From Spisula solida (Eukaryota; Mollusca; Bivalvia; Venerida; Mactridae), in assembly GCA_947247005.1 (NCBI GenBank), contig OX365944.1, positions 880,501 through 944,500 on the forward strand: a stretch of 64,000 nt of DNA. The letters run 5' to 3'. A program made the position numbers and the translations under genes. Position 1 is the first letter of the stretch. Each line of letters begins with the position of its first letter. Below the pieces are notes generated by a model that saw only the letters and a program-made list of their open reading frames with translations, made no database searches and had not been told where the DNA came from. Below are positions 49,601 to 55,600 of the stretch, piece by piece.

Positions 49601-52600
49601 ATGCTCGGCATTTTTAAAAAAAAGAAAGAAAAAAAGTTTTAAAGCCAATTCAAAGGCGTACAGAAACGATGGCCGCGCCTAGCCTAGCCTAGCCCCCACA
49701 CTAGAGACATAAAACGTAAGCTGGTATACTGCTTCTCACAATGAATAACACACTGCATGCTGGTTTCTAAAATTAGCAAATTACTATCCATAAAGTGAGG
49801 TGATTCCATATGGTAACTAAACTGAAACAAATGTACAGCGAGCCAAGAATCATAACCAAAACTTGGATGTGTCCTTTAAAATGCTTTCAGACATTTTCCA
49901 AGACTCAGATGAGCAAATCAGGAAATGGCTATTCTTTCAATGCATTTTCACAACTTTTTGCATCTAACTTTTTAAAAAAAATATATTTAACTATTTTGTA
50001 CCTGCATCAAATACACAACTGCATGCAATACATGAGTTAATATGGTACTTTTCCATTACAACATTAAGATCTCATTACAAGCATAAATAACTGTTTTTCA
50101 AAATGAATACTATCAAATAATGCATCATTCATAAAACATTCATAAAGTTCTAATTACGCTGCCTCACAATATTTACTCTGTATTATTTCCACTGATAGCA
50201 AGTCACTTTATCTCATAAATGCATTATAAATAGAAAATTGTATATACAGTTTAATGAAATATTTGATAACATGTAGACATATTTCAAAATATGCATTACA
50301 AAAATGAACCAGTTAAACCACGTTCCTATGATTTATTGTCCACCCAGCATTAACTGATATGCCAGAAAATATTTAAATCAACGAAAATATTGGTAGCACA
50401 GACTACACGGAGCAGTCAAAATAACAATACTATAATGTCAGAAGCCATGTGATACTTGAATTCCTAGCGAAATCAGTTAATTGTTTATTCAATATACCAG
50501 TACAGTACAAACTCTGTAGAGCAATATAAACAGCCCTAAGAGAGCTGCACATATTGACCTCTGTTTAGAGGTTGTTGCTGTACAGAGGTTAAAATCATAA
50601 GGTAAATAATCAAGGGCCCTTGCAAATATTGACTTTGGGGAATGTTTAAGGTGATGTTATAGTGAGGTTGTTGCTCTATTCAGTGCAGCTCTGGAGAGGT
50701 TATACTAATGAGATCATACCATTATTGGCGGATCATCACAAAACTGATCAAAACAAAATCCTGAGGGTGGTTGATACATGTTGGGTAAAACTCCAGTTAA
50801 CAAATCAGCCTTAACACCTGAAATAAGTGCAGTATGTTGCCATAGTAACGTAGAGTAGGTTGTCAAAGTTACAGCTAGTAGATATAAGATTATAAAACTT
50901 GAGATAAGTCACCATACTCATATATAGAGATCACATTCTTATTTGCAACATGTTTCAGTCAAATATCCAGTACATGGTATTTCACATGTACTCAGGCCAT
51001 AGGATATTGTACAGAGTTCTTTCCCCTGAGTATGAAAACAAGAGGACCCAAAGGGCCATAGGTCGCTCACCTGTCCTAGTAGTTCATACAGACCCCTTGA
51101 TGGTAGCTTCTATTGCATGTACAGGTTTTCATATTGTCTTATAAAGCGACATTGCAATTTACATCACATTGCATATTGAAGTTTAAGCCAAGTTTTGTCT
51201 ATGATTTGACCTTGTGACCTAATTTTTGACTCAAGATGACCCAATATCAAACTTGACCTAGATTTTGTTGAGATGATCGTTTAGACTAAATCTCATGAAG
51301 ATTGGACGAAAATTGTGACCTCTAGTAACTACACAAGGTTTTTCAATGATTTGACCTTATAATGACCTAGTTTTTGACACCAGATGACCCAATATCGAAC
51401 TTGACCTAGATTTTGTTGAAATGATCATTGTGACCAAGTTTCATAAAGGTAAGGTCAAAATTGTGACCTCTACAGTCTACACAAGGTTTTTCTATGATTT
51501 GACCATGTGACATAGTTTTTGACCCTGGATGACCCAATATAGAACTTGACCTAGATTTTGTTGACATGATCATTGTGACAAATTTGATAAAGATTAGGTC
51601 AAAATTGTGACCTCTAGTGACTACACAAGGTTTTCTATGATTTTACCTTGTGACCTAGTTTTTGACCCTGGATGACGAAATATCGAACTTGATCTAGATT
51701 TTGTTAAGATGATCATTGTGACCAAGTTTCATAAAGATAAGACCAAAATTGTGACCTCTACTGACTACACAAGATTTTTCTATGATTTTACCTTGTGACC
51801 TAGTTTTTGACCCCGGATGATGCAATATCGAACTTGATCTAGATTTTGTTAAGATGATCATTGTGACCAAGTTTCATAAAGATTAGACCAAAATTGTGAC
51901 CTCTACTGACTACACAAGGTTTTCTATGATTTTACCTTGTGACCTAGTTTTTGACCCCGGATGACGCAATATCAAACTTGACCTAGATTTTGTTGAGATG
52001 ATCATTGTGACCAAGTTTCATAAAGATTAGACCAAAATTGTGACCTCTACTGACTACACAAGGTTTTTCTATGATTTGACCTAGTTACCTAGTTTTTCAC
52101 CCCAGATGACCCAATATTGAACTTGGCCTAGATTTTGTTGAGATGATCATTGTGACCAGTTTCATAAAGATTAGGCTAAAACTGTGACCTACAGTGTCTA
52201 CACAAATTGTGGACGGACGACAGACGACGGACGAAGAGTGATCACAAAAGCTCACTCTGTCATATTGAGTTGAATTAGACTGGTTACAAATCAATGGTTA
52301 TTGCAACATATATTCTGGGGGGACACCGTGTATAAATGTATATAAATTAAAATTTTTGTCACTATTTATTTTATGCCAACTAAATACAACCTTTTGATTG
52401 ACTCATCTCAAGTTTTATAATCTAAGTCACACTACTACTATAGCAAACTTCTCGCAATAGTTACCTCCCCTTACAGGTGACTTACCACTGCCTTCACAAA
52501 TTTTTTTGATCATTTTGATTTTTTTAATTGTGCATATCGAATTGAATCACATTTATCATTTCTATTGATAAGATGTTTTATAATGCTAATCTTCGTTTTG

Positions 52601-55600
52601 TCTGCTTCAAGTTATATCTGAACATCAGTTTTATCAATGAAGTCATGTGATGTTTTAATCATGACGTACCAGCACCGGCACTCGACTAGAAGAAAAATTA
52701 TGAATAGCCGTGGCCTATAATCTATACTTAGACCATTGGTCTAAATAGAGATTATAGGCCACGGCAATTCGTAAAATTGTGCCTCTAGCGAGTGCCAGTG
52801 TATACCAGGTATGTTGTGAAGGCAGTGTTTACTGTAAGTGTAAGGAAAGTAGTCACAGTGAAGAGTTTGCTACTATAGATACAGTTACCTAGCGACTACA
52901 GACATTTGTTGTCATCACCTATCACCGTACATACCTCAATAGGCTCATCACTACAGAATACATCAAAACAGAAACCTTGTGGTGGATTGTACCCATTGAA
53001 CAACGCTCCAGTAAACAGATCCGATTTCTCCCCTAACAACATGTAAATAACTTCATCAGTTTATTCAAGGTTTACGCATTTTTTTCAAAAAATAATTTTT
53101 CAGTCAAATATCACACTGACATAGTATTACAGCTGCTTGTTTTTTTCAGGAATAATTTCGTCCAGTAATAGCTCAATCCTCCACTAGTAAATAACATTTT
53201 GTACAAAATTGTAGCAAATGTTTTGGAAAAACATGTACTAAAACAATCAGACATTTTCGCAAGTATTTAATTTTCGCTATATTCACAAATTCAATAAGTT
53301 AGCAAAAATTAATGCTCATAACCAAATACAATGCTAGTAAAACACCGAGTGCATTTCTTTCACGAGTTTAAAATTCATGAACATTTAATCTCAGGAACTA
53401 AATCAGAATAACAAATTCGCAAAATTTTAACGTCCCGAAAATATATGATTTGACAGTATAACACAACCAGTATAGTATGGAGGTAAGGACCTGATCCTGA
53501 CCTTTATGTATGAATATATTACAAGGTTCTTATGAAGAATAAATCAATTTGGCAAGCAAACGGAGCAATATTAGTCCTTAAGATTTGTGTATGTATGTAT
53601 TACACCTCAAGCATCATCTATGAAAACATACAACTGGGGATATAAATATAGACACAATATCAGCTGTTAAAATGTGCTAATAGAAGGTCGAGGATAATGT
53701 CAAATGCTCCGTACTATTCACATGGGTGCAAGTTGAAAAAAAAATGAAAAACAAGACTGCATTCAATAAAAGCTTATGCCCTGTGGAAGCCTAGTCCATA
53801 AAAAAGTCAATCAGGGGCCATAATTCTGTTAAAATATTAATAGGGTTACATGGCTTTGTCAGTATAAGGGACTTATGATGGTAAACAAGTATGTCAAGCT
53901 TGAAGACAACGCCTTGATGTAAGACGAAATTTGGGTCAACAAGAATTGGACGCTTAATAAGTCTATGTCCAAAATTAGGTCAATGTGAAGGTCAAAATGA
54001 GGTTAGGTGATACAGGCCTGTGGAGAGTGTTCATATGCAACATCCAGGCCAGTATTAAAGCTTTTTAGCAAGCCATAATAATGCTAGAATAAACGGTCAA
54101 TTTGGGTTAACCAAGAATTTGGCCCTTCAATAAGTCTAAGTCCAAAATAAGGTCAAGGTGAAGGTCAAAATGGGGTCAGATGATACAGGCATGTGGAGAG
54201 TATTCATATACAACATACATGCAAGTATGGAAGCTTTGTAGCAAGCCATAATGATGCTTGAAGAAATGGTCAATTTGGGTTAACCGGACGGACGAATGGA
54301 CGGAACAACGGACGGACGAACGGACAGGTGAATCACTATATGCCTCCAGATCTATCGATATGGGGGCATAAAAACCTGAAACTCTGACGAAATGACAATT
54401 TATATAGTGAAAACAAAGATATTCAAAAACCTGAAATCCGGTATATACCTGACAACTTGTACCAATGTATACACTTCATTAATCAAACAAACGAGAATAA
54501 AGAACTTCTTACCTAAATTGTCCGGACTTCCGTGCCACATCATCTCCATTGATTTTTCCAACAATCTTTTATTCTTATCTTCAAAGTCAAGACGACCAAA
54601 GAACAAACCATCAAATCCAAACTGTAATAAAACAAAATACTTTACTATACCTCATGTGACCTCTCAATGAATTTTCCCCATAGCCTTGCCAGGTGATGTT
54701 TGTCAAATACTATAATAACTTCAATACTTTGTGACGGCATCTTCTGTTTTTAACATTACTGAAGTATTTCAATTCATCTCCATCATGAGAATTGTCAAAG
54801 TGTTCCAGGGTTTCCACTAGCGTCTGAATCTGAAGGGTCATTTTGATACTTCTGACTAAGAGTTTCCATTTTTTAGGCAAAATACCCATGATTTTAAGAG
54901 AAAATAACCCTTCAAACCAAATTCTTGAGGGTAAAAATGTCGCTTTTTGGAAATTTCAAGGGTCTTTTCAATGCCTTTTCCCAAGTCAAATGGAACCCCT
55001 GATTCTGCACAATAAGAGGGACTAGTACTAAATAAATCAGCATACCTGTGCAAACAGAGAAGCCTGTTCCCTAGAATGACCGAATGGATCAATCTGCCAC
55101 CCAATACGAGGCCTTCCACAGTCACCGAAGTTCTGACGTAGAAATTCAAACCCCAGAGAATGTTGGTCTATAATTGCATTATAATGTGTAGATGCCTCGT
55201 CGTTCATACACCAGCCACCAAGTATGAACTCTAAACGACCTGTAAATAAATAAAAATACCTTATATAGCACAATGGTCAAGTAAGAATCGCTCTTGACAG
55301 GGATCAAAAGGTCCCTGGTTGGAACCTCAGTTTTGGCACTTCAAATGGGTTTTGGGGTCCAGATCGTGAGAGTTCCGATCAAAACCGGGCAGTTGGGAAG
55401 CATGCACTTGGTCAATACTGAAATACTTTTCAGTGGTTTTATCAAACTAGAGAAGAACTGGTTGGTAACCTAGAGGTAGTCTCACGTGTATCAGTGCTTT
55501 TATACACCAGGCATGTTAAAGAACCAAGGAGTTTAGTCTAAGGTGTCACAGCTGGATTTCCCTCTCTTATATCTCCAAGTCGGAGATGATGGGACAATCT

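Follow-up and report, generated by a model that had tools for sequence, protein, structure and literature searches.

We analysed a window of 64,000 nt from the genome of the clam Spisula solida (C1:880501-944500, where C1 is contig OX365944.1; the whole genome comprises 932 Mb in 36 contigs), the minus strand of which carries exons 1 to 10 of a gene for a lysosomal alpha-mannosidase (LAMAN, GH38 family). Two homologous 98-nt exons, 6a (52935..53032) and 6b (50720..50817), lie one after the other between exons 5 and 7 of this gene. We regard them as an old, selected and diverged tandem pair, predicted to be mutually exclusive, through which one gene would encode two LAMAN enzymes differing in a single loop, and we put the probability of this reading at roughly 0.8; exclusive use of 6a or 6b is itself a prediction from the sequence. 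A more far-reaching version, in which an ancient molluscan pair switches a pocket loop and gives two oligosaccharide preferences, with an intronic element and an RNA duplex, both private to this locus, making the choice, could in our view equally well hold or fail.

Anatomy, frame and constraint of exons 6a and 6b

Both exons run from phase 1 to phase 0 (EKSDLFTGALFNGYNPPQGFCFDVFCSDEPIE for 6a, VKADLLTGVLPNMYQPPSGFCFDQFCDDPPIM for 6b), neither contains a stop, and they agree at 62 of 98 bases and 20 of 32 residues; the coordinates, lengths, phases, absence of stops and residue identity given in the initial annotation were all reproduced on recomputation. Each exon is preceded by AG and followed by GT. 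The earlier description of these sites as intact stands in that all four are present, but their strengths are unequal, the acceptor of 6a being weak. The constant 5' partner, exon 5 (54513..54621), ends in phase 1 and leaves one spare base, and the constant 3' partner, exon 7 (49378..49449), opens in phase 0. The combinations 5-6a-7 and 5-6b-7 are both open frames; 5-6a-6b-7 stops inside 6b after '...VLRLIC', and 5-7, with both exons skipped, stops directly after '...DNLG', which agrees with the earlier claim that either exon alone gives a continuous protein while the two together shift the frame. Traits of mutually exclusive pairs are present: the exons are neighbouring and homologous, of equal length and phase, carry usable splice sites, and, as is typical though not obligatory, fit the frame one at a time. 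We propose that the spliceosome would connect exon 5 with just one of the two exons, and that messages with both exons or neither would hit an early stop and be destroyed.

The same frame logic could serve a different end, in which the main role of the two exons is to tune the amount of enzyme, as a productivity switch, and the residue differences are secondary. Both and neither do give immediate stops, and splicing hereabouts may vary in molluscs, as suggested by isoform X4 of the gastropod Haliotis rubra, annotated as LAMAN, which omits exactly the stretch of exons 5 and 6 in frame. One poison exon would suffice for such a switch, however, and two distinct forms shared across clams would not be needed; we consider this explanation very unlikely.

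Chance is excluded as the source of the likeness between 6a and 6b. In a six-frame scan of the window (BLOSUM62, ungapped), the other exon scored 109, with runners-up at 23 (query 6a) or 27 (query 6b), and ten shuffles of the 6a residues scored 14-26. Furthermore, of the 20 possible 98-nt AG..GT frames in the 5.06 kb that separate exon 5 from exon 7, only 6a and 6b lack stops and also reach a site-score threshold, which was derived from these two exons themselves.

Both exons are under purifying constraint, and neither looks dead. Between them, the proportions of nonsynonymous and synonymous differences (pN and pS) were 0.27 and 0.72, with pN/pS of 0.38 at a pS nearly saturated over 20 sites. 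When neutral drift of one copy to equal base divergence was simulated, 20 or more identical residues were retained in 0 of 16,454 runs, and 30% of the runs were stop-free. Similarly, at the 14 positions conserved in at least 85% of 118-119 homologues, 6a matched 14 and 6b matched 13.

An assembly or haplotype artefact, in which two alleles or two genes were merged, has a negligible chance of accounting for the pair. Long tandem arrays in the region can disturb assembly; on the other hand, at 63% base identity the exons differ far more than alleles would, the window contains no N, and the gene is otherwise complete. At the sensitivity of a genome search with the protein, one locus carries both 6a and 6b (a lower bound, as are all other counts made within this genome), and the 161 bp preceding 6b are single copy, for which reasons the pair cannot be taken for alleles or a collapsed second gene.

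The encoded loop and its forms in other molluscs

By alignment, exon 6 corresponds to bovine LAMAN residues 248-279, a segment that includes Tyr261, Asn262, Pro263 and the Cys268-Cys273 disulfide of mammalian LAMAN; the initial annotation's placement of the segment, with its CX4C loop, in the catalytic domain is borne out. Bovine Leu272 is Phe in both 6a and 6b. Twelve residues differ from 6a to 6b, including F258P, G260M, N262Q and V271Q, and the zinc-site and acid-site residues are encoded by constant exons. Under the proposed mechanism, the constant exons would retain the zinc site and catalytic acids, and the swapped exon would replace Asn262 by Gln, Phe258 by Pro, Gly260 by Met and Val271 by Gln in the adjoining loop. 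Mapping onto bovine and human LAMAN, together with published structures, predicts that this loop likely lies near the active site and substrate pocket. In fly Golgi mannosidase II, Tyr269 and Asp270 are substrate and selectivity residues, Asn262 being the lysosomal counterpart of Asp270, and the Asn262 site has been used by drug designers to separate Golgi from lysosomal mannosidase (both from the review PMC13204073). The human P263L variant retains 9% activity, according to PMC11931667. The swap is likely to alter substrate preference; because it falls at a site by which Golgi and lysosomal enzymes are told apart, the two predicted enzymes probably differ in the linkage or branch that they prefer. 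Predicted models of the a-form Mactra and b-form Ruditapes proteins, used in place of the spliced Spisula protein, were equally confident in the loop (block predicted local distance difference test scores of 84-87 and 77-89).

Relatives were drawn from a protein collection clustered at 90% identity, which hides isoform pairs; the searches covered the best 120 of 4338 matches (relatives), the best 120 of 821 (fragments) and, in another, 52 of 52. In the alignment of 120 homologues, the a-form (FNGYSPPGG) was found in Mactra antiquata and the b-form (PN[LM]YQPP) in Mercenaria, Ruditapes and Dreissena. Identities to 6a and 6b, out of 32, were 26 and 21 for Mactra, 23 and 27 for Mercenaria, 24 and 27 for Ruditapes, and 22 and 25 for Dreissena. 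Gln at position 262 occurred in 7 of 118 homologues from the best 120 of 4338, all of them molluscan (Mercenaria, Ruditapes, Dreissena, one Mya protein, Haliotis rufescens and two Littorina proteins). The fragment search of the protein collection, in which transcript fragments of this species were looked for, returned no close relative among the best 120 of 821, the best match having 68% identity over 93% of the query.

With exon 6 left out, the clam proteins were 67-80% identical to the Spisula protein and grouped by species: the tree joined Spisula with Mactra, then Mercenaria with Ruditapes, then Dreissena with Mya, and all these forks were starred. With the exon alone, the approximately unbiased (AU) test, run on 33 columns of 8 sequences that were picked after the alignment had been seen and that omitted the Mya proteins for their poor fit to either form, rejected a duplication within the Spisula lineage (p 0.0044), and the tree test favours an a-clade and a b-clade predating these families. 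The pair has been retained from before the split of Spisula and Mactra, and probably for longer.

Splice sites, intronic elements and the weight of the evidence

We scored the splice sites with a small matrix built from other sites of the mannosidase gene, 24 acceptors and 24 donors. The acceptor of 6b ranked first among the 248 AGs of the region and its donor sixth among 339 GTs; the donor of 6a ranked first among the same 339 GTs, and its acceptor, with a score of -1.6, only 92nd among the AGs and below 23 of the gene's 24 other acceptors. From these site strengths, 6b is expected to be the default exon and 6a to need regulation. The intron between the two exons measures 2117 nt and is not one too short for splicing, as steric hindrance would demand.

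The weak acceptor also bears on the possibility that only one exon is used, its partner having arisen recently as a duplicate or being in decay, in which case 6a would be the likelier relic; moreover, the representatives of Mercenaria, Ruditapes and Dreissena show the b-form only. Against this, 6a combines the region's best donor with a fit to all 14 strongly conserved positions, the sister-genus protein from Mactra antiquata carries the a-form, and the divergence between the exons is constrained, whereas decay at such divergence would be expected to cost frame, sites or conserved residues. Nor does 6b make a better relic, with its leading acceptor and its form annotated in venerids and Dreissena. 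We judge a relic to be unlikely.

Under the preferred reading of two functional exons, 6b would be used by default and 6a helped by a factor or structure, plausibly through an intronic element upstream of both exons and a private 25-bp duplex between them. The first of these comprises 37 nt upstream of 6a (53095..53131, minus strand) and its 35-nt counterpart upstream of 6b (50950..50984, minus strand). They align with a score of 40, whereas 1000 dinucleotide shuffles never exceeded 28; this was the best among 45 exon-pair comparisons, the next being 29. Across the 932 Mb, their 18-nt core is present at exactly two places, upstream of 6a and upstream of 6b. The element is likely under constraint, since third positions in the exons are saturated and plain common descent would hardly preserve such a block. 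Introns between exclusive exons retain traces of this kind, as section 3.3 of PMC6071210 describes.

The putative duplex is formed by a 25-nt inverted repeat in the 6a-6b intron, with an upstream arm at 52399..52423, 511 nt past 6a, and a downstream arm at 50887..50911, 69 nt before 6b (both minus strand). The arms can form 24 Watson-Crick pairs plus one G-U pair, at -34.2 kcal/mol by themselves and -48.0 kcal/mol with flanks, and the duplex would loop out a 145-bp tandem array (51189..52205). Mobile-element ends were rejected as the origin of the repeat, its arms occurring exactly twice in 932 Mb versus 2646 and 1391 genome copies for two control inverted repeats. One such abundant inverted repeat, with 2646 genome matches, lies at C1:871240-871363 (TATTGTCGGTGAATAAAACACGGGC). 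The 6a-6b intron also contains a foldback at 52698-52774 that is enclosed by 14-nt inverted ends (52486-52499 and 52814-52827) and resembles a small inverted-repeat mobile element. No known RNA family was found in the window at gathering score.

Several observations weigh against an old, regulated pair, in addition to the weak 6a acceptor. The one conserved position at which 6b departs is Phe253, where it has Leu; Phe is found in 112 and Leu in 6 of 118 homologues. The Mya proteins fit neither form clearly. In the AU test described above, a duplication in the mactrid ancestor was not rejected (p 0.133), and in that case the b-like forms of venerids and dreissenids would not be descended from 6b. 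The initial annotation had named loss of one form in related species, together with exclusive use of the other in all tissues, as evidence against the pair: both forms do occur among orthologues, a in Mactra and b in Mercenaria, Ruditapes and Dreissena, yet the two exons were never seen together in one other species of the 90%-clustered collection, which hides isoforms. As to regulation, no docking site shared by the two upstream elements found support, as nothing beat shuffled sequence: the best joint pairing with both elements reached -20.5 kcal/mol, within a null of -18.5 to -25.1 kcal/mol from 20 shuffles. Inverted repeats of similar size are frequent in this genome, with 17 counted in 94 kb and 8 in 50 kb, and a window-pair energy scan ranked two pairs of a local foldback in the 6a-6b intron as more stable than the 25-bp duplex; for these two reasons, the duplex is a candidate regulatory structure.

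The rest of the gene and the significance of the pair

The complete model comprises 26 coding exons and a 1026-aa GH38 enzyme, in which PF01074, PF09261, PF07748, PF17677 and PF21260 (GH38 N, middle and C domains) all scored above the curated Pfam cut-off. The nearest protein among the best 120 of 4338 matches was that of Mactra antiquata (80% identity); the closest relatives among the matches listed carry LAMAN annotation, and the best solved relative is also a LAMAN. On these domains and relatives the name lysosomal alpha-mannosidase, already assigned in the initial annotation, is borne out. Within the window, all on the minus strand, exon 1 (60975..61067) holds the start codon and a predicted signal peptide, and exon 2 (59262..59364) the HTHDD zinc-site motif; exon 3 (56005..56178) is followed by exon 4 (55046..55239) with the nucleophile motif WQIDPFGHS. 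Downstream of the pair and exon 7 come exon 8 (48652..48768) with MGSDF, the general acid region by homology, exon 9 (47916..48122) and exon 10 (46597..46669), the last one within the window.

The window lacks the HHDA motif, and a gene broken after exon 10 had been suspected; this was rejected, the remaining exons being found in the 30 kb beyond. Intron 10 spans 55,334 bp, exon 11 (EEAMGVAQHHDAVS) lies at C1:871762, and the borders of exons 11-26 were placed manually by AG/GT, phase and homology. A more distant LAMAN-like paralogue on the same contig (C1:39.181-39.197 Mb) has a single exon-6 counterpart (VLNNVYWPPKGFCWDYWC), and was rejected as a second case of an exon pair because only one exon-6 match was found. 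Other repeats occur in the gene. C2H2 zinc-finger-like arrays with an 84-bp period (TGEKPFECDVCGSAF) and long open frames lie at 11008-12078, 22124-22993 and 39984-40814 (plus strand), and also at 34357-34657; they sit in the 55-kb intron 10 on the strand opposite to the mannosidase gene, and may be nested genes or parts of mobile elements. Upstream of exon 15, at C1:862634-863641, a 109-nt tandem array copies the exon 15 acceptor and first 40 codons (MIPVDDRTKSIPERKG...) in at least 8 copies without the exon's 3' end, the full exon being present in the last copy only. Just downstream of exon 17, the 3' part of that exon (PSGAYIFRPNNTRP...) is tandemly repeated (C1:860751-861119).

The clam pair resembles OGDH exons 4a/4b and PKM exons 9/10, the latter likewise tandem mutually exclusive exons of a metabolic enzyme: homologous neighbouring exons lie in one enzyme gene, one enters the message, and a small functional region changes. 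Unlike those pairs, the clam gene is a lysosomal glycosidase, and the acceptor of 6b is the region's best ordinary acceptor. Exons 4a/4b of OGDH are described as tandem-duplicated and mutually exclusive in PMC7969005. Having one exon with less favourable splice signals recalls U2AF1 exons Ab/3 (PMC5224494), in a different gene and protein. As in the docking-site and selector pairs of Dscam and srp, in the account of PMC6071210 cited above, a short element has been duplicated with the exon and kept upstream of each copy, and a long-range intronic duplex is possible. Unlike Dscam and srp, no common docking partner rises above shuffled sequence, and the clam 25-bp duplex lies within one intron and involves no competition between exons.

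We know of no alternative exon for this loop in mammals (bovine LAMAN 1O7D, human MAN2B1), within the scope of the literature search given below. Well-known exclusive pairs belong to ion channels, receptors and cytoskeletal genes. Ion transporters are stressed in PMC9741552. Our search of the open-access literature found no report of mutually exclusive exons in a mannosidase, in keeping with the earlier statement that no such pair had been reported in this family. Tandem exons used in a mutually exclusive way form an established class, and an example in the LAMAN/GH38 family appears new.

If the more far-reaching version is true, a GH38 glycosidase would have its substrate specificity switched by mutually exclusive exons. 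A pair that swaps the pocket loop of such an enzyme would be a natural, selected experiment on GH38 specificity. For the study of exon choice in molluscs, it would provide a small model of two exons whose intronic elements are unique in the genome. Furthermore, it would allow tests of how a single gene serves different glycans, for example in digestion versus turnover of the animal's own glycoproteins.

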